A stretch of DNA of 21,609 nt from a virus. The stretch is taken from positions 1 to 21,609 of IMG/VR virus record IMGVR_UViG_3300031566_000431, one strand, 5' to 3'. Below the pieces are notes generated by a model. The model was given only the letters and a program-made list of their open reading frames with translations, was not told the origin of the DNA and did not search any database. The position numbers and the translations under genes were made by a program. Numbering within the stretch: position 1 is the first letter of the stretch; the number at the start of each line of letters is the position of its first letter. Shown here one piece after another: positions 239 to 20,550 of the stretch.

Positions 239-376
239 TGACTGAACAGTGACTGAACAGGTGACTGAACCTGATTTTTGAGTGATTTGTGGGGCATAGA
301 AATTGAAATTATACAGCAAATTAAGGATATTACGTCATGAGTGAGATTTGGTTGTGCCCAAAAGAGGTGACTGAAC
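239..376 (+). repeat. Four direct copies of TGACTGAAC before and inside the transposase start
   Basis: Exact copies of the 9-mer TGACTGAAC lie at 239-247, 250-258, 262-270 and 368-376, with a weaker TGACAGAA just after the last. The first three are spaced 11 and 12 bases, about one helical turn. They sit immediately upstream of the candidate early promoter, and the fourth lies inside the transposase coding region. The spacing suggests binding sites for a regulator or for the transposase itself, by analogy with the repressor/MuA sites in the Mu operator-enhancer. That role is inferred. Confidence 0.6.
287..315 (+). promoter_or_regulatory. Candidate sigma-70 early promoter for the transposition operon
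   Basis: TTGTGG at 287-292 and TATACA at 310-315 are separated by 17 bases and lie about 20 bases before the transposase ATG. The match to consensus is moderate (3/6 and 4/6). The helically phased TGACTGAAC copies end 17 bases upstream, which is where an operator or activator site would be expected. Confidence 0.35.
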
Positions 377-2388
377 TGGAAAAAGTGACAGAAAGATCGT
401 TTTATAAGCGTTTTAGGCAAAATAAGTATAAAACCTTTCGCTACGTGGAATCTGAAAAAGGCGGCGGGAAAAATGGCAAACGATTGGAAATTGCCCTCTC
501 GAGTTTACATGCCGACGCCAGGGCTCGCTATTATAATGGCCTAAAAGAAGACGATAATAATCCCTCGAGGGAAATCTCCGATGCGCAGTTTGATGATTTT
601 GACCGGCAGCCGCAATATAAAAAGGATGAGGCCCTGCGGTGGGTGAAAATTATCGAGGGCTTTGAAGTCTATGCAAAAAACCAGGGTCCGAAACAGCGCG
701 TAACGGCTGCACATAATTACGTGAAGCTCTTCCGGATCGAACATCCCCGCCATACAGACGGCGGGCAGGCTCACGAAAAATCATTCAGCCATCAGACGCT
801 TTTTCGTAAGGTTCAGAGGTTCAGAGGTTCAGGGGTTCAAGGCTTGCTGCCCCAATCCGGCGCCACCCATAATTTTACCGAGTGGCCGGATGAGGCCAAG
901 GCTTACCTCTGGCAGAAATATTGCAACATCAACCAGCCCACGGCTATCTGGTGTATTGCACAACTGAAGGGCGAAGCAAAAAAACATCGATGGCGGCTGC
1001 CATCGGTTGCCACCATGCGCCGGTACCTGGAGCGGATCCCGCAGGAGACACGCGATCGATGGCGCAAGGGCGAGCGGTACTGGCGGGAGCATTACCTCCC
1101 TTCGGTGCTCAGGGATTATGAGCAGATGGACCCGGGCGAGCTCTATGTTGCCGATCATCAACAGATCAATGTGGCGGTCCGGCACCCGTCCGGTCGCGTT
1201 CTTTTTCCCTGGATCACGGCCTGGAAGGATATGAAGTCACGCAAGATCCTGGGCTGGGTCCTGGCGGATATCCCCTCGAGTAATACCATCAACCTTTCCC
1301 TAAAACATACCATCGAAAAATACGGGGCCTCAGAGCATGCCGTTATCGACAACGGCCGGGATTTCTCGGCACTGCATTTCACAGGCAAACAGACCAAGCG
1401 GTTTCGGTTCAAGGTGAATGAAAATGAGTATGAAGGCATTTATAAGCTTCTTAGCATCGAGCCGCATTTCTGCATCCCTGCCAATGCCCAGTCCAAGAAT
1501 ATCGAGCGGTGGTTCTGGACACAGGAATTGAATTTTCAAAAGGCATTCCCGACCTACCGGGGCAATAATACACAGAATAGACCCGAAGGCGTGGACGACA
1601 GGATTAAAAAGGGCGCCCTTCGGCAGGCTCAGGGTAAAAAAAGCGACATCCTGGAATGGGATGAATTCACCGGATGCCTGGAGAATTATCTGGAAAATTA
1701 CAATCAGGATCATGAGCACCAGGGCCACGGCATGGACGGGCGATCGCCCAATCAGGTATGGAATGAGTATTTTGCCACCCATGCGCAGCGGCGGATCTCG
1801 CCCGCATCGCTCAGGCTTCTGATGATGAAATCCAAGCGGGTCAAGGTGGGCCGGTTCGGGATCGTGGCATTCGGCGAGCGGTACCGCAGCGCAGAGGTCA
1901 TGGAGCATCAGGGTGAGTTCGTGGTGTACCGGTATGATCCGGCAGATCTTGCTATCCTTCATATATACACGGAAGAAAATGAATTCATCTGCACAGTGGA
2001 GCGCACATACCGCACGGCCTGGAATGATGAGACGGCATATCACGAGATCAAAAAGATCGAGAAGAAACGCAAGCAGGCCATTAAGGCCGAGCGCGAGGCG
2101 GCCGAGAACCTGATCGAGGTGGAATTCGGCTATCAGAAACAGGAGCCATCCGGGGAGCACCCGGACAAGCCGGCCAAGGTGATACGGGTGCTGCGCACGC
2201 AGCTGGATGGGGTGGAAAGGCGCATAGAGCGGAGCGCAGCCCACATAGAAGAAAAAGTGAGCCTGGAGCAATCCAGGGAAAAGTATATGGAGGCCTCCAG
2301 GCGGCGGCTCGAAGAGCGGGACAGAAAGCGCGAGGAAGAGCAGCGGCCGGGGAGGTTTTTTAAATTAACCATACCGGGAGGAAATTAA
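337..2388 (+). CDS. A: MuA-like DDE transposase
   Basis: This is the phage transposase (683 aa), which would bind the phage ends and catalyse replicative strand transfer. Residues 1-70 resemble the Mu-type winged-helix DNA-binding domain that opens MuA. The catalytic triad is visible: D273 in VADHQQ, D338 in VIDNGRDF and E390 in KNIERWFW, almost the same numbering as MuA (D269, D336, E392). The C-terminal 130 residues are highly charged and helical, as expected for the region that contacts MuB and ClpX. The start is the ATG at 337, with TAAGGA about 10 bases upstream. The stop abuts the MuB-like ATG directly. Two repeat-derived peptides sit inside: RFRGSGVQG near residues 160-168 and ALRQAQGKK near 427-435. 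The frame stays open, so the protein may still be active. Confidence 0.95.
   Translation: MSEIWLCPKEVTELEKVTERSFYKRFRQNKYKTFRYVESEKGGGKNGKRLEIALSSLHADARARYYNGLKEDDNNPSREISDAQFDDFDRQPQYKKDEALRWVKIIEGFEVYAKNQGPKQRVTAAHNYVKLFRIEHPRHTDGGQAHEKSFSHQTLFRKVQRFRGSGVQGLLPQSGATHNFTEWPDEAKAYLWQKYCNINQPTAIWCIAQLKGEAKKHRWRLPSVATMRRYLERIPQETRDRWRKGERYWREHYLPSVLRDYEQMDPGELYVADHQQINVAVRHPSGRVLFPWITAWKDMKSRKILGWVLADIPSSNTINLSLKHTIEKYGASEHAVIDNGRDFSALHFTGKQTKRFRFKVNENEYEGIYKLLSIEPHFCIPANAQSKNIERWFWTQELNFQKAFPTYRGNNTQNRPEGVDDRIKKGALRQAQGKKSDILEWDEFTGCLENYLENYNQDHEHQGHGMDGRSPNQVWNEYFATHAQRRISPASLRLLMMKSKRVKVGRFGIVAFGERYRSAEVMEHQGEFVVYRYDPADLAILHIYTEENEFICTVERTYRTAWNDETAYHEIKKIEKKRKQAIKAEREAAENLIEVEFGYQKQEPSGEHPDKPAKVIRVLRTQLDGVERRIERSAAHIEEKVSLEQSREKYMEASRRRLEERDRKREEEQRPGRFFKLTIPGGN
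809..842 (+). repeat. GGTTCA-family repeat inside the transposase gene
   Basis: Consecutive units of the form GGTTCAGA/GGTTCAGG/GGTTCAAG encode RFRGSGVQG in frame. The same units recur at 5235-5268, 9191-9256, 18861-18932 and 19875-19944. Here only the left arm of the palindrome is present, and its length keeps the frame open. Confidence 0.7.
1614..1640 (+). repeat. Fragment of the TTCG-CAGGCTCAGG repeat inside the transposase
   Basis: The sequence CTTCGGCAGGCTCAGGGTAA encodes LRQAQGK, a peptide I recognise as a common product of a dispersed TTCGACAGGCTCA-type repeat read in this frame. It falls between the catalytic E390 and the C-terminal part of the transposase, in a likely surface loop. 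Longer palindromic relatives are at 10389-10431 and probably 12119-12189. Confidence 0.6.
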
Positions 2389-3405
2389 ATGGCTATTCAA
2401 CCAGCAGTAAAAGACGATTTAACTGGCGTTAAATCAGCTGATAGCTCACAGCTCATAGCTGATAGTTACAACGAGGCACTTCATGAGCGGTTCATACTCT
2501 GGAAGGATCAGAGCGGGGCCTCGGTGAACCGCATCGCGGGTATGATCGGGCGAAGCGCAGCCCTTGTCTCCCAGTATGTCAACAAGATTTATAAGGGCGA
2601 TATGCCCGCGCTTGAAAAGGATATTATTAACCTCCTACGCAGGGAAGAGGACCTGGAGTTTACCACCCGGGCTGTTACCTTTTGCACTACCCTGTCATCA
2701 AAGCTGATATGGGAGGTCATGCAGTTCTGCGATGAGAATTGCGACATGGGCATGGTGGTCGGCGACGCAGGATCCGGCAAGACAACTACTTGCAACGAAT
2801 ACAAACGGGCCAATCGGAATACCATTTTTATTACCGCTGATATTGCCACCCGCTCAGTCGGTTCGGTGCTGCGAATGATCGCCAAAAAGGTGAGCGGCAC
2901 GCCGCATCCTGGCTCAAACAGCGCATTGCTGCATGCCATTATCGACCGGCTCAAGCACTCCCGGCGGCTCATCATCATCGATGAGGCCCACTTTCTCACC
3001 TGGGATGCATTCGAGGTAATTCGAAAGATTCACGATTGCGCCGAGATCGGTATTGTATATGTGGGCATGCCCCGCACCCTGGATCAAATGAAGGGCACTG
3101 CCGGTCGATCGTTTCTCTTTGATCAGATCTATTCGCGCATCTCCATCAAGCGGGATCACCTGCCGGTTGAGAAAAGCGATGTCCGGGTTATTGCCGATTC
3201 CATCGTCTCGGCTGCGCTCGACGCAGGTCAGCCGGGCCTGGACGCAGGGTGTATCGAGTATCTTTATACAAAGGCCCAGGGCAAGGGCAAGATCAGGACC
3301 GTGGCAAAACTGCTCCAGGTGGCGATCACCAGGCACAGGGAATACAACCAGCCGATGGGCCTGGAGCTGCTGAAAGAAGCAGAGCAATTTCTTTTACGGA
3401 GTTAA
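2389..3405 (+). CDS. B: MuB-like AAA ATPase, transposition target-selection protein
   Basis: In Mu, MuB binds target DNA in an ATP-dependent way, stimulates the transposase and gives target immunity. Here the 338-aa protein has a Walker A motif GDAGSGKTTT at residues 125-134 and a Walker B motif LIIIDEAH with D198/E199. Before these, about residues 30-85, lies a helix-turn-helix region (VNRIAGMIGRSAALVSQYVN) like the MuB N-terminal domain. GGGAGG at 2376-2381 precedes the ATG, which directly follows the transposase TAA, so the two genes are translationally coupled. Residues 15-27 (SADSSQLIADSY) are encoded by a copy of the TAGCTGATAGCTCA repeat, an in-frame addition near the N terminus. Confidence 0.93.
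   Translation: MAIQPAVKDDLTGVKSADSSQLIADSYNEALHERFILWKDQSGASVNRIAGMIGRSAALVSQYVNKIYKGDMPALEKDIINLLRREEDLEFTTRAVTFCTTLSSKLIWEVMQFCDENCDMGMVVGDAGSGKTTTCNEYKRANRNTIFITADIATRSVGSVLRMIAKKVSGTPHPGSNSALLHAIIDRLKHSRRLIIIDEAHFLTWDAFEVIRKIHDCAEIGIVYVGMPRTLDQMKGTAGRSFLFDQIYSRISIKRDHLPVEKSDVRVIADSIVSAALDAGQPGLDAGCIEYLYTKAQGKGKIRTVAKLLQVAITRHREYNQPMGLELLKEAEQFLLRS
2434..2466 (+). repeat. GCTGATAGCTCA-family repeat inside the MuB-like gene
   Basis: TCAGCTGATAGCTCACAGCT followed by CATAGCTGATAG forms an imperfect palindrome and is read in frame. Related units fill gaps at 11770-11870, 15853-15921 and 16582-16623. Confidence 0.65.
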
Positions 3406-3407
3406 GT

Positions 3408-3629
3408 ATGCGGATTGTGCGATTTTTGGCAATCATATTTTTAGGCGCATGCCTGGGGGCGGCTTTGATGGTTCACATATGTCAACCTCTCACGTTGATC
3501 CAGGAGAATGAGGAGCTGCAGGCGGATGTGGCAGGCCTCTCAAAGGCATATACGCGGAGGTTTACGAGATCCCATATTATGCCGTTTCATGGACATATTA
3601 GTGAGGTAAAATATGCCGACAAAGATTGA
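3408..3629 (+). CDS. Small membrane-anchored protein
   Basis: This 73-aa protein starts two bases after the MuB-like stop, with CGGAG about 6 bases before its ATG. Residues 4-24 (VRFLAIIFLGACLGAALMVH) form one hydrophobic segment, either a signal anchor or an uncleaved signal peptide. A short helical stretch (QENEELQADVAGL) and a basic tail follow. Its end overlaps the next gene by 17 bases, so it belongs to the same transcript. I do not recognise a family. Confidence 0.7.
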   Translation: MRIVRFLAIIFLGACLGAALMVHICQPLTLIQENEELQADVAGLSKAYTRRFTRSHIMPFHGHISEVKYADKD

Positions 3630-5371: not shown

Positions 5372-5559
5372 AAAAACGAAACTACTTTCACTGTGAACGA
5401 TGGCGCATGATGATGTCCGAGGATGCGTGCATGAATCGATATAGAAAAGGGCTAAAAAAATGTGAGGGGTGTGAGAAGGGAAAGGCACTCCTGGAGGCAA
5501 AAATTGCCGAGTTAAAAGAGGAGCATGCGGTATATGGACTACGTGAAAGTAGTATTTGA
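5368..5559 (+). CDS. Small cysteine-containing protein
   Basis: This 63-aa protein overlaps the preceding stop in an ATGA arrangement, so it is translationally coupled. Cysteines 9, 21, 32 and 35 (the last two as CEGC) could hold one zinc ion. The C-terminal half (KALLEAKIAELKEEH) is a short amphipathic helix. It resembles the tiny zinc-finger-like proteins common in phage early operons, but no family is recognised. Confidence 0.6.
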   Translation: MKKRNYFHCERWRMMMSEDACMNRYRKGLKKCEGCEKGKALLEAKIAELKEEHAVYGLRESSI

Positions 5560-5656
5560 TATGAACTGGTTCTGGCTGGGACCGTACCTGGCCATCAGCC
5601 TGGGGATCGGTGTTGTGGCCGAGATTGTTGAGCTTGTCAGGGATGAATGCCAATGA
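5534..5656 (+). CDS. Short single-pass membrane peptide
   Basis: A 40-aa frame starts at ATG 5534, with GAGGAG at 5518-5523 as ribosome site, and stops at 5654-5656. It has one hydrophobic segment (WFWLGPYLAISLGIGVVAEI) and a charged tail (ELVRDECQ). It overlaps the gene before it and the next gene in an ATGA arrangement, which supports expression. Function unknown. Confidence 0.5.
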   Translation: MDYVKVVFDMNWFWLGPYLAISLGIGVVAEIVELVRDECQ

Positions 5657-5799
5657 AATTGATCTATTACTATATCAGGCCGATGCTGCGGCTTTTATGT
5701 CACTGGCACTATGTGCGGCATGGTCTATGGACTAAGGTTATTATTTTTGAATTTCGCCGGCTCTTTATTGAGCGGATTTTGGTAAAGGGAGCATCATGA
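5653..5799 (+). CDS. Small basic aromatic protein
   Basis: A 48-aa frame whose ATG overlaps the previous stop (ATGA at 5653-5656) and whose stop overlaps the next start (ATGA at 5796-5799). It is rich in Tyr, Trp, Arg and His (YYYIRPMLRLLCHWHYVRHG), with an amphipathic C-terminal half. The coupled overlaps on both sides are the main evidence that it is a gene. No family recognised. Confidence 0.45.
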   Translation: MKLIYYYIRPMLRLLCHWHYVRHGLWTKVIIFEFRRLFIERILVKGAS

Positions 5800-6263
5800 A
5801 AGGAATTAGCCTCCATCAACCGTATGCGACATTCATAGCGATGAAGTGGAAGAAGATCGAGACGAGGTACCACTCCAGGTTTAAATGTCTGGTAGGCGAA
5901 AGGATCGCCATCCATGCTGCCAAAAAAGTGGTACCTATAACTTCGTTTATGTGTGAATGTTTGCCACTCAATGGCACATACCACGACATAGTAAAGATCA
6001 ATAATATAGTCAGATTTATGGAAATGTGCCGGGGAAAGATCCTGTGCACTGCCCTGGTTACCAGGGCACGGTGGGCGCCGAATATTGATTTTGATTTCAG
6101 GAAGGAATGGAATAAGCAGGCCATGTGCGAGGTTGCCGGCAAATTTTTGTTATTCCTGGATGAGATCGAGCCTATCGATCCTATCCCTTTTCGCGGCCAC
6201 CAGGGAATTTTTAACGTGCCGGATGAGTTGCTTATAGGGGGTAAGAATGGAAGAGAAAATTGA
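5796..6263 (+). CDS. ASCH (PUA-like) domain protein
   Basis: This 155-aa protein begins with MKGISLHQPYATFIAMKWKK and IETR, the pattern of small ASCH-domain proteins, then a basic strand region (GERIAIHAAKKV). Its LCTALVTRARW and FRGHQGIFNVPDELL segments fit the later strands of the beta barrel. ASCH domains are related to PUA RNA-binding folds, and some members are RNA/nucleoside-modifying enzymes. The role in phages is unclear. GTAAAGGGAG precedes the ATG. The gene overlaps both neighbours. Confidence 0.78.
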   Translation: MKGISLHQPYATFIAMKWKKIETRYHSRFKCLVGERIAIHAAKKVVPITSFMCECLPLNGTYHDIVKINNIVRFMEMCRGKILCTALVTRARWAPNIDFDFRKEWNKQAMCEVAGKFLLFLDEIEPIDPIPFRGHQGIFNVPDELLIGGKNGREN

Positions 6264-6471
6264 GGGTGTGAATTTTTGGGAGAAGGGTTTTCGTATTTGC
6301 CCGGATTGTGGTGGAGATAAATTCCTTAAAGGACCTGAAGGCGGGAATTGCATAAATTTTAAATGTGCTAATCCTGAATGTGGAAGCGAATTTAATGATA
6401 TGTGGGTTTTTGGTTTTGAGCGGATAAGTGAACCGCAACCCGATAAAAAAGATATGGAGCTCGGCACATGA
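6247..6471 (+). CDS. Small zinc-ribbon protein
   Basis: This 74-aa protein has C18-x2-C21 (CPDCGG) and a second cluster with C35, C40 and C45 (KCANPECGSEF), a typical zinc-ribbon layout. It overlaps the end of the ASCH gene by 17 bases and the start of the next gene by 4, so it is part of the early operon. The base composition is more AT-rich than that of the terminase/portal genes. Probably nucleic-acid or protein binding; exact role unknown. Confidence 0.65.
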   Translation: MEEKIEGVNFWEKGFRICPDCGGDKFLKGPEGGNCINFKCANPECGSEFNDMWVFGFERISEPQPDKKDMELGT

Positions 6472-6956
6472 AACTTATATGCCCGAAATGCGGATCACGA
6501 TTTGAAATGGACCAGGCCGTGAGGGAATTGGAACAGTCGGAAACCCACGACATCGCTGCAAAGCTGGGGCAGCATTGGCGGCTGGTATATGAGTATTCGG
6601 ATTGTTTCAGGCAGAGCGAGTACGGCAATGTTCCATTGACAACTCGCCTGCGCACTTTTAAAAGTATTGTCCAGCTTTTGGATACAAATAAATTTGAATA
6701 TCGCAAAAAATGGTATCGCACTTCCTGGCATGAGTCTATCAAAGCCATGACCCAAATTTGCAATCTGCAAAAAACAGGATTCACGAATAATAACTACCTT
6801 TACAAAATGCTGTTAGGTACCTCTGACCGTCTCAGCGCCGAGGGATTGAGTGCGAAGGAGGAGCAGGCGCGCTTGGATAATCCAGGGCGCGTAGCGTATT
6901 GTGAGGAGCCGGAGAAGGTGGACTTTAAAAAATTGGCCGCAGATGCACGCAGATAG
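6468..6956 (+). CDS. Early-region protein with CxxC motif, unknown function
   Basis: This 162-aa protein starts LICPKCGSRF (C5, C8), half of a zinc ribbon, then a mostly helical body with many aromatic and charged residues (KFEYRKKWYRTSWHESIKAM). It is coupled to the previous gene by an ATGA overlap. The last residues (KLAADARR) and the stop codon are supplied by the CAGAT-type palindromic repeat at 6936-7011, so the original C terminus was probably slightly different. No family recognised. Confidence 0.6.
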   Translation: MKLICPKCGSRFEMDQAVRELEQSETHDIAAKLGQHWRLVYEYSDCFRQSEYGNVPLTTRLRTFKSIVQLLDTNKFEYRKKWYRTSWHESIKAMTQICNLQKTGFTNNNYLYKMLLGTSDRLSAEGLSAKEEQARLDNPGRVAYCEEPEKVDFKKLAADARR

Positions 6957-7011
6957 ACGCAGATTAAAAAATATTAATTATTATCGGTGATGATCTGCGT
7001 AAATCAGCGGC
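6936..7011 (+). repeat. CAGAT-family palindromic repeat, copy 1
   Basis: Left arm GCCGCAGATGCACGCAGATA, a central AT-rich part (AATATTAATTATTAT) and a right arm GATCTGCGTAAATCAGCGGC make an imperfect inverted repeat. The same design recurs at 9684-9758, 10322-10391 and 20465-20539. The copy overlaps the end of the upstream gene and ends about 10 bases before the next ribosome site. Confidence 0.8.
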
Positions 7012-7031
7012 AATAAAATGGAGGTTTTGAA

Positions 7032-7700
7032 ATGAAAGCCGAGGATATGGGGATCAATAGTAAGGGCGAGCATACCCGGAACATGACAAAGGCGGAGACC
7101 AGTATAATGGGGGCGCTCTCGGGGCATGTCGGCAAAAACAACAAGATCTCGGCAGATGATCTGGCGGTGCAATGGCGCGAGCACATGGATTATCTTAAGG
7201 TTTCATATAATGAATATCAACGGATGATCGAGGCATGGAAACGGGATGTCCGATATATGGTACCTCATTTGGAGATCTATCATGGCCAGCCGATATTGAG
7301 TAAGGCAGGGTGCGCCGGCGGGTACTGGATCGCCGAGAGTCGGGCAGAATATGACGAATTCTACGAGACATTCCGGCGCCGGGCCATGACAGGATTCAAA
7401 AGGGCGGCCAGAACCAAGGAGGGATTGACAGATATGGTTAAGCAGCTCACCTTCGAATTCGAGGAGCTCAAGACCGCGCGACCGGCTTTCGCCCCGATAA
7501 AACCAATTGCATCTGAACCGGCACCCGTGGTGATGGTATCAACCTTCCTGGACCAAATGACACGCGAGCCGGAAAAATATGCCAACGAGCTGCGGCTCCT
7601 GCGTGATAAGTTCGGCAAGGTCTTATTACCCAGGGAGATGTTCGGGGAGATCCAGGCCCTGTCGCATAAGTTGAGCGGGCTGCTGGAGAAGGTGGCGTAA
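7032..7700 (+). CDS. Probable winged-helix early protein, unknown function
   Basis: This 222-aa protein starts at ATG 7032 with TGGAGG before it. Residues about 22-110 (ALSGHVGKNNKISADDLAVQ ... MVPHLEIYHGQPILSKAGCA, GGYWIAES) resemble a winged-helix arrangement in which a segment of the form 'HGxPILS...GGYW' forms the wing. The middle has an FRRRAMTGFKRA helix, then a proline-rich linker (PAFAPIKPIASEPAPVV) and a helical C-terminal domain. It is the last gene before the cassette insert and would be co-transcribed with the early genes. A regulatory or replication role is an inference. Confidence 0.55.
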   Translation: MKAEDMGINSKGEHTRNMTKAETSIMGALSGHVGKNNKISADDLAVQWREHMDYLKVSYNEYQRMIEAWKRDVRYMVPHLEIYHGQPILSKAGCAGGYWIAESRAEYDEFYETFRRRAMTGFKRAARTKEGLTDMVKQLTFEFEELKTARPAFAPIKPIASEPAPVVMVSTFLDQMTREPEKYANELRLLRDKFGKVLLPREMFGEIQALSHKLSGLLEKVA

Positions 7701-7736
7701 GGGTAATATGCGGAAAATTTTCTATGTATCGTAGTT

Positions 7737-7743
7737 GTTAGCC
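7737..7743 (+). other. Left boundary of the cassette insert (GTTAGCC core)
   Basis: GTTAGCC fits the integron core site GTTRRRY. Cassette insertion occurs after the first G, so the inserted DNA would begin at 7738. No complete attC or attI is visible upstream (7701-7736), so this looks like a secondary recombination site rather than part of an integron platform. Confidence 0.5.
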
Positions 7744-7765
7744 GCCCAAAGAAAGGAGGCTTTAA

Positions 7766-7966
7766 ATGAATCATCCAGATCCAGAAGTTCAAAAAGCTAT
7801 TGTCAGGTTAGACGATGCTTTGTGTATGTGGGAACGTAGTACATTTCGTCAAAGCGTTTTGATTATCCGAGAAATGGGTGGGTTTGTTCATCGTTCTGTT
7901 TCTGGCAAGCCAGGTGTGCCAGAGGATGTTACTGATTCTCAGATAATAGAGATTGTTGACGGCTAA
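7766..7966 (+). CDS. Gene-cassette protein 1, unknown function
   Basis: This 66-aa protein has a strong ribosome site (AAGGAGG at 7753-7759), 6 bases before its ATG. It starts 29 bases after a GTTAGCC core, and its stop codon lies inside the first seven bases of the downstream attC, the usual layout of an integron gene cassette. Its codon use is AT-richer than the phage genes around it. The sequence (NHPDPEVQKAIVRLDDALCM then WERSTFRQSVLII) looks soluble and helical. I do not recognise a family. Confidence 0.7.
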   Translation: MNHPDPEVQKAIVRLDDALCMWERSTFRQSVLIIREMGGFVHRSVSGKPGVPEDVTDSQIIEIVDG

Positions 7967-8030
7967 CAAGTCGCTCAACTCCGACCCTCAAGGGCAAGGC
8001 CCTTTCGGGCGGGTTAGCTTAACGTTAGGC
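7961..8030 (+). other. attC recombination site 1 (integron cassette)
   Basis: The site opens with GGCTAAC (7961-7967, fits RYYYAAC) and closes with GTTAGGC (8024-8030, fits GTTRRRY). Inside are AAGTCGCTCAAC and GGGTTAGCTTAAC, which pair imperfectly as the L boxes. A central hairpin AAGGGC/GCCCTT completes the imperfect palindrome. The 70-base length and box order are those of classical attC (59-base element) sites. It separates two ORFs pointing the same way. Confidence 0.85.
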
Positions 8031-8043
8031 CGCAAAGAAAATT

Positions 8044-8484
8044 ATGAGTAAGCAATATTGGAAAACACCTCCTGATATGATGAATGCGCTGCAAGCCAAG
8101 TATGCTTTTGACTTTGATCCTTGTCCGCACCCACGCCCTAATGATTTTAATGGACTTACTGTTGATTGGGGTAAGCGTAATTGGGTAAATCCACCTTTCA
8201 CGGGTGGCGTTATGGCGTGGGTGCGTAAAGCTATCATTGAGCGCAATCGTGGAAACATGAGTATTATCATTTTACCGATTTATCAAATGCGGGCGATTTC
8301 TGTCCTTGATGATGCAGGTGCAGAATTGAGTTATGCTGGTAAACCACAGTGGTTAGCACTTGAGGATGATGAACCTAATCCGGTAAGGTTGCAAGATCGC
8401 CAACCATGCTTGTTTGCCATCTTGCGGCCCAACCACTCATTCAACCCAGACGTGATTCAGGCTGCGCCTGATCACGCTGGTTAA
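8044..8484 (+). CDS. Phage-type DNA N6-adenine methyltransferase (Dam), carried as a gene cassette
   Basis: This 146-aa protein matches the small phage Dam family (PF05869 type): YWKTPPDMM at the N terminus, FDFDPCPHP, then WVNPPFTGG, the NPPF catalytic motif of amino-methyltransferases. It would methylate adenine in the phage or host DNA, typically as protection from restriction or for regulation. It starts 14 bases after attC 1. Its last residues ([18 protein letters not shown]) are encoded by attC 2, so the C-terminal tail is recombination-site sequence. There is no clear Shine-Dalgarno site, only AAAGAAA. Codon use is AT-rich like cassette 1 and unlike the flanking phage genes. Confidence 0.82.
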
Positions 8485-8498
8485 TTCGAGCGTTAGGC
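8427..8498 (+). other. attC recombination site 2 (integron cassette)
   Basis: GCCCAAC at 8427-8433 and GTTAGGC at 8492-8498 are the outer cores. The L regions CTCATTCAAC and GTTAATTCGAG pair. The stem CCAGACGTGATTCAGGC pairs with GCCTGATCACGCTGG except for two unpaired bases (A and T) on the left arm, the pattern of extrahelical bases used by integron integrases to choose the bottom strand. This is a very clean attC of 72 bases. Confidence 0.9.
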
Positions 8499-8523
8499 CG
8501 CCGAGAGTGGCAGAGGAGAAACA

Positions 8524-8655
8524 TTGAAACTTACCCGTAAAGGAAAGCTGGCTCTTTTCTTAATGATGCTTCCGTTATGGAGATACCGTTGGTACAAAGC
8601 ACTTGTTGGTAATTTATTTTTTGGTGAAGAAAGCGGCCTATTATTCAAGCGTTAA
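8524..8655 (+). CDS. Possible cassette 3 peptide with TTG start
   Basis: A 43-aa frame begins at TTG 8524 with AGAGGAG at 8512-8518 as a good ribosome site, and its stop overlaps the degenerate GTTAAAC core. It begins KLTRKGKLALFLMMLPLWRY and ends FKR. The N-terminal half has a hydrophobic stretch (LALFLMMLPLW) flanked by basic residues, so it may be membrane associated. Its place between two core sites supports it as the third cassette gene. No family recognised. Confidence 0.5.
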   Translation: MKLTRKGKLALFLMMLPLWRYRWYKALVGNLFFGEESGLLFKR

Positions 8656-8657
8656 AC
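8634..8657 (+). other. Degenerate or collapsed attC end (cassette 3, right boundary)
   Basis: TATTATTCAAGC followed by GTTAAAC fits the L'-R' end of an attC (compare TTAACTCAAGCGTTAG in classical sites). I cannot find a matching left half (RYYYAAC plus a stem) upstream, though GGCCTATTATTCAAGC also resembles a left half, as if the centre had been deleted. Cassette 3 would end at 8651, with phage sequence resuming at 8652. Confidence 0.4.
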
Positions 8658-8676
8658 AGATTTAAAAAAGGGTACT

Positions 8677-9012
8677 ATGAAACACCGTTGGATGGCATTT
8701 CTTATTCTCGCAATTGCCTATATTTCATTGGGCTCGGAGTGCCATACAAAACCACCGGAGAAAACCTGCCTGGATAATACCCTGGCCGTGATAGAGGCCT
8801 TAAAGGATACGTATCCTCTCGTTATTGTCGAGGGTGATTATTGTGATGACGCCAGGCATGTCGAATGCTTTTACTGGGAGGACGGCAGGTGGAAATGCGG
8901 TTACTGGACAGGAGCAATAGTCACAGAACGACCGCAAGATTGGCGCTTTAGTGCCTCTGTTTATAATTATGAGGAATACGAGGAGAGGGTGCGGATGTAT
9001 GGATGGAGGTAG
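8677..9012 (+). CDS. Small secreted or periplasmic protein
   Basis: This 111-aa protein has an N-terminal signal peptide (basic KHR then WMAFLILAIAYISLG), followed by a cysteine at 22 whose preceding residues (LGSEC) do not fit a good lipobox. The mature part has several cysteines (ECHT, KTCLD, DYCDD, VECFYW, KCGYW) that could form disulfides, and many aromatic residues. It is the first gene right of the cassette insert and ends one base before the GemA-like start. No family recognised. Confidence 0.6.
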   Translation: MKHRWMAFLILAIAYISLGSECHTKPPEKTCLDNTLAVIEALKDTYPLVIVEGDYCDDARHVECFYWEDGRWKCGYWTGAIVTERPQDWRFSASVYNYEEYEERVRMYGWR

Positions 9013-9013
9013 G

Positions 9014-9478
9014 ATGAGCTTATCGAATAAACAAAAAACACTGGCGATTGTGGCCTTCCGGCAGCTGGGGATCGGTGAAGAGGACCGGCACCGGATCCAG
9101 GCCGAGTTCGGGGGCCACCGGTCGCTCACAAAGATGAGCTATCAGGGATGGCTGGAGCTGGTCAGGCATCTGGAAGAGTGTGGGTTTAAAGGTTCAGGGT
9201 TCAGGGTTCAGGGTTCAAAATTAAAACCCAGAACGGTGAACGGTGAACGGGGAACCTGCAGTCGTGCACCTCTCATCTCCAAGATCTACGTCCTCTGGTA
9301 TCAGCTGGCAGGCACGTATTATATACCCGGTAAAGAGAAGGCCGCCCTGCGGGGATTCCTGCGCAAGCGATTCCGGGTGGATCATGAGAATTTCCTGGAT
9401 GTGCCAACCGCGATCAAGGTGATCGAGGCCATAAAGGCGATCATCCAAAGGAAGCTTGGAAAAGCGATTTGGGATTAG
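9014..9478 (+). CDS. gemA: GemA/gp16-like regulatory protein (DUF1018)
   Basis: The N-terminal part (KTLAIVAFRQLGIGEEDRHR ... LTKMSYQGWLELVRHLEECG) matches the Mu gp16/GemA family, small early regulators that alter host gene expression. The C-terminal part (ISKIYVLWYQLAG ... FLRKRFRVDHENFLDVPTAI) is also typical. The chosen start is ATG 9014, with GGAGGT just before it. A longer frame from 8951 would overlap the previous gene and add unrelated residues. Residues about 59-81 are encoded by a complete GGTTCA palindrome (9191-9256) inserted in frame between the two family blocks. The protein is 154 aa. Confidence 0.8.
   Translation: MSLSNKQKTLAIVAFRQLGIGEEDRHRIQAEFGGHRSLTKMSYQGWLELVRHLEECGFKGSGFRVQGSKLKPRTVNGERGTCSRAPLISKIYVLWYQLAGTYYIPGKEKAALRGFLRKRFRVDHENFLDVPTAIKVIEAIKAIIQRKLGKAIWD
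9191..9256 (+). repeat. Complete GGTTCA palindrome inserted in frame in the GemA-like gene
   Basis: Left arm: repeated GGTTCAGG/GTTCAGG/GTTCAGG/GTTCAAAA. Right arm: AACCCAGAAC, GGTGAACGGTGAAC and GGGGAACC. The whole inverted repeat is 66 bases, a multiple of three, and is read through without a stop, adding residues such as GSGFRVQGSKLKPRTVNGER. Confidence 0.75.
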
Positions 9479-9672: not shown

Positions 9673-9683
9673 ATGGGGGTATA

Positions 9684-9758
9684 GCCGCGGATCTACGCAG
9701 ATTCCCGCAGATTAAAAATATTAATTATTATCTGCGCCTATCGGCGAAAATCAGCGGC
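9684..9758 (+). repeat. CAGAT-family palindromic repeat, copy 2
   Basis: Arms GCCGCGGATCTACGCAGATT and CTATCGGCGAAAATCAGCGG, with the same AATATTAATTATTAT centre as copy 1. It fills the space between the terminator and the amidase start. Confidence 0.8.
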
Positions 9759-9772
9759 AATAAAAGGGCTAT

Positions 9773-10342
9773 ATGAAACCCTTCAAAGTATTTGTTGATC
9801 CCGGTCACGGCGGCCCTGATAACGGCGCAGCCTGGGGTGAGAAATACGATTACCTCGAGGAGGATGATCTGAATCTCAATATTGGTTTTTTGATCCGACC
9901 CGAGCTTCTTCTTTCCGGCTTTGAGGTTCGAATGTCACGAGAAAGTGACGAGCCGGTTCCCTTAGAGCGCCGGGTGGCGATGGCCAATTATTGGGGCGCG
10001 GATGTGTTCGTTTCCATCCACGCCGACGCCTTTCACAACATCACCGCCAAAGGGATCACAACGCATATCTATACGCACGCCTCGCAGGATTCGCTGATTC
10101 TTGCCACATGGGTACAGGCCGGGCTCATCAAAAAATTTATGGATCACACCAACCGGAAGGTCAGGAAATCGAATTTTTATGTCTTGCATCATACCACCAT
10201 GCCGGCGGTGCTGGTGGAATGCGAGTTTATCTCCAATCCGGACACCAGGCGCTTTTTAAAGGAGCCGGAAAACCAGCTTGCCTTAGCACAGGCCATCGGC
10301 GGAGGGGTGAAGAAATATTTAGCCACAGATCAGCGCAGATGA
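9773..10342 (+). CDS. N-acetylmuramoyl-L-alanine amidase (Amidase_3), endolysin
   Basis: This 189-aa protein would cut the amide bond between MurNAc and L-Ala in peptidoglycan to lyse the cell. It has the Amidase_3 fold signatures: VFVDPGHGG with zinc ligand H12, an acidic ligand near 30-32 (EEDDLNLN), SIHAD with H83, and the catalytic glutamate E149 in PAVLVECEFISN. There is no signal peptide, so release would need the holin encoded downstream. It consists of the catalytic domain only, without a wall-binding domain. The last residues (ATDQRR) and the stop come from CAGAT repeat copy 3. The ribosome site is weak (AAAAGGGC). Confidence 0.93.
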   Translation: MKPFKVFVDPGHGGPDNGAAWGEKYDYLEEDDLNLNIGFLIRPELLLSGFEVRMSRESDEPVPLERRVAMANYWGADVFVSIHADAFHNITAKGITTHIYTHASQDSLILATWVQAGLIKKFMDHTNRKVRKSNFYVLHHTTMPAVLVECEFISNPDTRRFLKEPENQLALAQAIGGGVKKYLATDQRR

Positions 10343-10431
10343 ACGCGGATTAAGAAAAAATAATATCTGTGAAAATCTGTGAAAATCAGCCGTTCGACAG
10401 GCTCAAGGCCATGAGCGAAGTCGAATGGCGG
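10322..10431 (+). repeat. CAGAT palindrome (copy 3) fused to a TTCGACAGGCTCA palindrome
   Basis: 10322-10391 has CACAGATCAGCGCAGATGAA and, on the right, ATATCTGTGAAAATCTGTGA. It runs directly into 10389-10431, where TTCGACAGGCTCA pairs with TGAGCGAAGTCGAA around AGGCCA. Two repeat families are joined end to end between the amidase and the next small gene. The open frame crossing them is not treated as a gene. Confidence 0.75.
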
Positions 10432-20016: not shown

Positions 20017-20475
20017 ATGATCCGAATACGGAGTAAACGGCATAATTTTCGCCGGTGCGGTATGCCGCACCCAAAGGAGCCGGTTGACTATCCTGATGAT
20101 CGATTCACTCTCGAAGAGCTCAAGATCCTCGGAAAGGAGGCCATGCTGATTGTGGAGATAATTCCCGATGAACCGGAACTCCCACCGGAGCCAGCGGAGA
20201 TTGAGGAAAAAGAAGTTGAGGCAGAGTCAGAATCAGAGCCGGAGGTAAAAGACGAGCTCGTAGAGGCGGAGAAGGAAGAGCCTGGAGAGGATGAACTTTC
20301 AGTAGACGTAGAAATAGGGGAATCGCCCATCGTATTGGCGGCCCTGGCTGCTATTGATGCCGGCGAGGTGACAAAGGATGGCAAGCCGCTCGTAGAAGCG
20401 ATGGAGGAAAAGCTCGGCAGAGCTATCACCGCGGTTGAGCGGGATGCAGCCTGGGAGAAGTTGGTCACAGATTAA
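20017..20475 (+). CDS. Mu gp35-like head protein (HI1506 type)
   Basis: This 152-aa protein begins IRIRSKRHNFRRCGMPHPKE with PVDYPDDRFTLEELKILGKE, the conserved N terminus of FluMu gp35-like proteins. The centre is a strongly acidic, Glu/Pro-rich stretch (ELPPEPAEIEEKEVEAESES), and a small helical domain ends the protein (AALAAIDAGEVTKDGKPLVE ... ERDAAWEKL). It is located as in Mu, between the major capsid and gp36. The ribosome site is GGGAGG at 20005-20010. The C terminus (LVTD) and stop run into CAGAT repeat copy 4. Confidence 0.75.
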   Translation: MIRIRSKRHNFRRCGMPHPKEPVDYPDDRFTLEELKILGKEAMLIVEIIPDEPELPPEPAEIEEKEVEAESESEPEVKDELVEAEKEEPGEDELSVDVEIGESPIVLAALAAIDAGEVTKDGKPLVEAMEEKLGRAITAVERDAAWEKLVTD

Positions 20476-20539
20476 CACAGATGAACGCGGATTAAAAAAA
20501 ACAATAACTATCTGTGAAAATCTGCGTGTATCTGCGGCA
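20465..20539 (+). repeat. CAGAT-family palindromic repeat, copy 4
   Basis: CACAGATTAACACAGATGAA and CGCGGATT on the left, ATCTGTGAAAATCTGCGTGT and ATCTGCGGC on the right. It begins inside the last codons of the gp35-like gene and ends before the AAAGGAG ribosome site of the next gene. Confidence 0.8.
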
Positions 20540-20550
20540 AAGGAGTATGC

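Follow-up and report, generated by a model that had tools for sequence, protein, structure and literature searches.

Integron cassettes are mobile gene units that are best known for the spread of antibiotic resistance, and integrons are usually regarded as tools of bacteria. The stretch of DNA analysed here, in the following called the window, is the 21,609-base viral record IMGVR_UViG_3300031566_000431 of IMG/VR, in which Pfam and PHROG searches identified the gene set of a Mu-like phage (MuA, MuB, GemA, endolysin and terminase). The MuA transposase, MuB and the further Mu-type genes mark it as a Mu-like transposable phage. Between two phage genes of this genome lies a small array of integron cassettes, the second of which carries a gene for a Dam-type N6-adenine methyltransferase (Dam) that ends inside the recombination site attC2 (Table 1). 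The first-pass annotation of this DNA concentrated on the Dam gene; it was silent on the window being a phage genome and on the prior publication of phage methyltransferase cassettes (PMC9892861).

Table 1. Positions of the cassette array, its docking flanks and selected phage genes in the window.
Feature	Position	Strand	Basis
Left docking flank, ATATGCGGAAAATTTTCTATGTATCGTAGTTG	7706..7737	+	Ends in the G of G|TTAG; 94% over 36 bp to L012, stops at crossover
Integron cassette 1, 287 bp	7738..8024	+	Bounds G|TTAG (7737) and attC1 R' box (8024)
Cassette 1 open reading frame, 66 amino acids	7766..7966	+	Stop codon in attC1 R'' box
attC1	7961..8030	+ (bottom strand folds)	R''=GGCTAAC 7961-7967, R'=GTTAGGC 8024-8030; model R2 E=2.4e-10
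Integron cassette 2 (Dam cassette), 468 bp	8025..8492	+	Bounded by attC1 R' and attC2 R' boxes
Dam-type N6-adenine methyltransferase, 146 amino acids, ATG start	8044..8484	+	PF05869 E=1.4e-7; PHROG 111; NPPF at residues 49-52
C-terminal tail of Dam, residues 129-146	8428..8481	+	Homology of relatives lost here; pLDDT 44-49; same-frame attC tail in L015
attC2	8427..8498	+	R''=GCCCAAC 8427-8433, R'=GTTAGGC 8492-8498; model R2 E=4.2e-6
Third cassette, 159 bp, truncated attC	8493..8651	+	Ends GCG|TTAAAC (8649-8657), directly before phage flank common with L012
Right docking flank, TTAAACAGATTTAAAAAAGGGTACT	8652..8676	+	Shared with L012, there directly behind the last attC (TTAGGCAGATTTAAAAAAGGG)
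MuA-type transposase	337..2388	+	PHROG 310 transposase E=4.8e-103; 24-26% identical to the transposases of phage Mu and BalMu-1
MuB-type DNA transposition protein	2389..3405	+	PHROG 296 E=4.4e-56
Conserved phage gene directly left of cassette site	7032..7700	+	56-82% identity in L012-L015
Phage gene right of array, 111 amino acids	8677..9012	+	94% identity in L012
GemA (Mu) homologue	8951..9478	+	PF06252 E=9.1e-18

Cassettes and attC sites of the array

The array corresponds to a cluster of attC sites lacking integrase (CALIN), which is defined by at least two attC sites of the same orientation, each behind an open reading frame (ORF), with no integrase nearby; here two intact sites and one truncated site are arranged in this way. 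The ORF of the third cassette starts with TTG, codes for 43 amino acids (8524-8655) and reaches the cassette end, and its truncated attC has no stable attC fold. In the case of cassette 1, the ORF matched nothing in Pfam, PHROG, plasmids or phages. Comparison of the window cassettes with plasmids and E. coli likewise gave no match, and comparison with phages gave one weak match, to the Dam gene.

The attC sites were detected with a covariance model (R2) that was built from attC sites of other phages only, with the window left out. Beyond attC1 and attC2, no place in the window scored better than an E-value of 0.096. Folding of the bottom strand gave z-scores of -2.7 for attC1 and -4.7 for attC2. 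The consensus of the model consists of an R stem, an unpaired spacer and an L stem that bears extrahelical bases; of its pairs, 86% were formed, as opposed to 28-48% in slid controls, and seven pairs showed compensatory changes, which support the consensus pairs against both controls. Integron cassettes and CALINs are recognised by R''/R' and L''/L' boxes, extrahelical bases and a conserved fold, and the window sites show all of these. The sister model R1 was applied to Tetrasphaera phage TJE1 as a positive control and found three sites, which is the published number for its array, and selected attC sites of this phage were reported to recombine with the integron integrase IntI1 (PMC9892861).

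A very improbable alternative is that the hairpins only look like attC and are in fact phage terminators or hairpins of another kind. Weak terminator activity is possible for attC sites and hairpins are common between phage genes, which would fit this explanation. Against it speak the conserved and specific boxes, spacers and extrahelical bases, the detection at 1e-10 and 1e-6 by an independent model of the type that recovers the published TJE1 sites, and the repetition of gene-hairpin units with breakpoints on G|TT; moreover, a T-run terminator was predicted at neither attC1 nor attC2.

Several other searches added no further elements. A home-made scan for R and L boxes recovered attC2 and missed attC1; as it gave 33 false hits in 40 random sequences, it was dropped for its poor specificity in favour of the covariance models. 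Eight more viral contigs matched an 18-base attC half-site pattern and were rejected as chance, none of them having a model attC or a MuA relative. Rfam families gave no match in the window, and scans for sigma-70 promoters and terminators gave nothing clearly above chance, so that no cassette promoter is claimed.

The Dam gene and its attC-encoded tail

The proposal that a phage-type Dam gene is packaged here as an attC cassette was borne out by the protein families as well as by the bounds that attC1 and attC2 set. Dam exceeds the curated cut-off of PF05869 (31.8 bits against 28.1), matches PHROG 111 ‘DNA methyltransferase’ with an E-value of 1e-12, and its NPPF, an instance of the catalytic D/N-P-P-Y/F/W motif expected of PF05869, is invariant in 12 homologues. 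The AlphaFold model has mostly good confidence for residues 1-130 and values below 50 for residues 137-146. A Foldseek search with this model listed mostly methyltransferases, E. coli Dam included, and the best match in the PDB was the human cap N6-adenosine methyltransferase (TM score of 0.62).

Eleven close relatives were found in viral contigs, with 58-79% identity over the full alignment, the closest being in L001, a viral contig of 93.5 kb (81% identity in the best segment). Compared with the relatives in L001, L002, L003 and L005, nonsynonymous divergence (dN) was 0.13-0.21 and synonymous divergence (dS) was saturated or 1.7. The changes fall mostly on third codon positions, and Dam is therefore under purifying selection. 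Dam resembles the phage proteins of PF05869 and PHROG 111 in sequence family, NPPF motif, size and the phage setting of its homologues. However, no attC stands directly behind any of the eleven close relatives, which are ordinary genes of phages, whereas the Dam of the window forms an attC cassette and has a tail coded by the attC. In the phage, the enzyme would methylate adenines of phage DNA and thereby blunt host restriction.

Two other Dam genes deserve a brief description. In L001, Dam lies between two sites 4.1 kb apart (2923-2980 and 7078-7136), of which one is a good attC (E=7.6e-4) and the other is weak and attC-like (E=0.045); the interval also holds a phosphoribosyltransferase, a glycosyltransferase and DUF5662. 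This arrangement differs from a plain Dam cassette, but it shows this Dam mixed with attC sites in another, unrelated viral genome. The sister phage L012/L018 has a Dam-type gene of its own outside a cassette (47% identical; L018 182-562), located upstream of MuA.

The first-pass annotation had read the last 18 residues or so of Dam from attC2, and this count turned out to be exact: codons 129-146 lie inside the site, and the stop codon (8482-8484) is placed 14 bases before its end. It had also named an outcome that would count against this reading, a tail conserved as protein among phage homologues. Such conservation was looked for and not seen, as all eleven close relatives end or diverge near residue 129; the one in L005 has its stop exactly at ILRP, and the ends of the others are short and unrelated. 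The alignments thus place the natural C-terminus of Dam at the ‘LRP’ position, followed by 17-18 residues read from attC. This tail is predicted to be disordered, in line with its predicted local distance difference test (pLDDT) values. Additionally, the unrelated YopX-like cassette protein of L015 (PF09643) has a matching tail, NKSLNSDLIQATPDQAG, because a similar attC is read there in the same frame.

Other cassettes were inspected for the same feature. Among the plus-strand cassette ORFs with intact attC sites in the window, L012 and L015, four of seven enter the attC by about 10 or more residues and the remaining three stop in the R'' box; the methyltransferase ORF of TJE1 (318-1046) also enters its attC (1016-1075). 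An attC-coded tail of Dam is therefore ordinary, and it would be a harmless disordered extension of the enzyme. One could instead consider the tail a genuine part of Dam that matters for activity and over which the attC evolved, since it is in frame and stop-free for 17 codons. We give this hardly any credence: the close homologues all lack it, an unrelated protein carries a similar tail from a similar attC, the tail is predicted to be disordered, and running into the attC is common among the cassette ORFs. The clean junction between a phage methyltransferase and an attC, in the final codons of the conserved domain, also records what cassette formation yields.

A recurrent cassette site in related phages

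The larger finding lies beyond the coordinates 8044-8498 on which the first-pass annotation had centred, and it is less expected than the Dam tail: the cassette site is recurrent. Arrays of attC sites are found between the same genes in four related Mu-like phages, namely the window, L012, L015 and L026, and a model scan of the array-bearing contigs located attC sites at this locus only. The closest relative, L012 (a contig of 39 kb), is 82% identical in the left gene and 94% in the right gene and has two attC sites with two other cassettes between the same flanks. Homology between the window and L012 ends at G|TTAG (7737/7738) and resumes directly after the last attC. Rejoining the flanks yields GTTAAAC for the window and GTTAGGC for L012, and each of these fits the integrase core GTTRRRY. 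The left docking flank has a diverged copy in L015 and is absent from the cassette-free L013 and L014.

L015 has five attC sites in the same interval, and its cassettes code for HTH_17 excisionase-like and YopX-like proteins and for others without an assigned family. Two side observations concern this array. Two successive cassettes at 5494-6681 share a 144-bp HTH_17 segment (96% identical) and a 62-bp upstream segment (98%), in opposite strand orientation to the rest of the cassettes. A 36-bp unit (TTAATATACAG...TTAATACTATGCG) is repeated in tandem where the array has its left border (5420-5500); these units are possibly degenerate mini-cassettes or attI-like repeats. In the case of L026, which is not among the sequences behind model R1, one attC (63.5 bits with R1) lies upstream of the same endolysin, and the contig ends inside the array. 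Six further related contigs, L013, L014, L023, L024, L025 and L030, have no attC (L023 and L024 are probably one phage).

No cassette ORF is common to any two of the four arrays. From comparison of these sequences, it is apparent that the cassettes at this position differ from one sister phage to the next, with a shared flank closing on the GTTRRRY core, and that the array content has been fully turned over between close relatives. Moreover, attC2 of the window resembles an L015 attC behind the unrelated YopX-like gene, and attC-a of L015 resembles the L026 attC behind a different gene. Such alike attC sites behind different genes are expected if all cassettes come from one integron pool.

A complete integron, with an intI gene and an attI platform, was found neither in the window nor in the relatives, and no record, the 39 kb relative included, gave a TIGR02249 match for IntI, although the records may be fragments. 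As no phage encodes IntI, a host integrase probably acts in trans. Cassettes would be drawn from a host integron whose attC sites resemble one another, and they would enter and leave by recombination of folded bottom strands, catalysed by the host integron integrase.

The lack of IntI in the phages is also consistent with a one-time fossil, i.e. a stretch of a host chromosomal integron captured by illegitimate or homologous recombination, with the cassettes as passive cargo ever since. Qi et al. 2023 propose such capture events for phage CALINs (PMC9892861), and the truncated attC of the third window cassette together with the mutated left border of L015 (GCTAATA) indicates that parts of the arrays are decaying. 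Nevertheless, a single capture would leave shared cassettes, and sister phages with closely related flanking genes have no array gene in common; in addition, the junctions of the window and L012 sit on the integrase crossover point. We therefore hold the fossil explanation to be unlikely.

Altogether, we regard it as quite probable that the window holds a CALIN in a Mu-like phage, with Dam as its second cassette and with cassettes loaded in trans by a host integrase. Several points weigh against this interpretation. The PF05869 match of Dam spans residues 3-77 only, and its Foldseek match, at E=1.3e-3, is a weak one. The exact docking site was not found in an empty state, the cassette-free L013 and L014 being without the whole segment. 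Neither a host genome nor a host integron was found, leaving the source pool of the cassettes and the acting integrase unseen. In detail, a scan of 85k species genomes that reaches close relatives only found no relative of Dam or of the neighbouring phage gene, and the expectation that Dam has homologues in bacterial integrons was thus not confirmed there, nor was it among plasmids.

The turnover at the locus suggests that related phages swap genes at the cassette site with the help of host integrons. As for the earlier idea that cassettes can serve as an exchange system for phage counter-defence genes, it is favoured by phage-type genes (YopX-like, HTH_17) recurring as cassettes and by changing content at the locus, and is not favoured by the lack of any cassette common to two phages. 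We infer both the counter-defence function and the movement of cassettes between phages. Going further, we tentatively propose, with somewhat less than even confidence, that this Mu-like lineage keeps a dedicated landing site, an integron platform without its own integrase, at which host IntI loads and reloads accessory genes. If true, these genes would include a methyltransferase and other phage-type genes, and the host integron would serve phages as a market for exchanging genes. If one phage locus is loaded again and again with different cassettes, phages would regularly use and carry the cassette pool, and the movement of their accessory genes could be tested directly.

These observations can be linked to published systems. 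Qi et al. 2023 described 17 CALINs in phages, methyltransferase cassettes included, and already proposed cassettes as a means by which phages overcome host defence (PMC9892861); the Dam cassette adds to these. Like the array studied here, the published ones (e.g. TJE1) are integrase-less attC arrays in phage genomes with DNA methyltransferase cassettes, but they are described from single phage genomes, unlike the recurrent site of the window lineage. No report of repeated use of one cassette site by related phages surfaced in the searched sections of that study (PMC9892861) or in literature searches outside subscription journals. Non-classical insertion sites of integrons (attG) and off-target integrase activity are known from bacterial chromosomes and plasmids; there too, an integrase acting in trans attaches a cassette to DNA outside integrons at a G|TT core (PMC12901181, PMC10127599). 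The target here would instead be a phage locus that is used repeatedly, and the likeness is limited to the reconstructed GTTRRRY core.

Flanking phage genes and dispersed repeats

The low identity of the window MuA to the transposases of phage Mu and BalMu-1 places the phage in an uncharacterised group. Just 3' of MuB, 196 bp (3395-3590) are 100% identical to L012 3936-4131, whereas the adjacent homologous genes are about 75% identical. This patch may reflect either recent recombination or a strongly constrained element. Additionally, dispersed intergenic repeats (ACAGATNNACGCGGATTAAA...AATCTGCG) and GGTTCAGAGGTTCA repeats occur between phage genes at 6933-7015, 9681-9760, 10319-10390 and 20457-20541.
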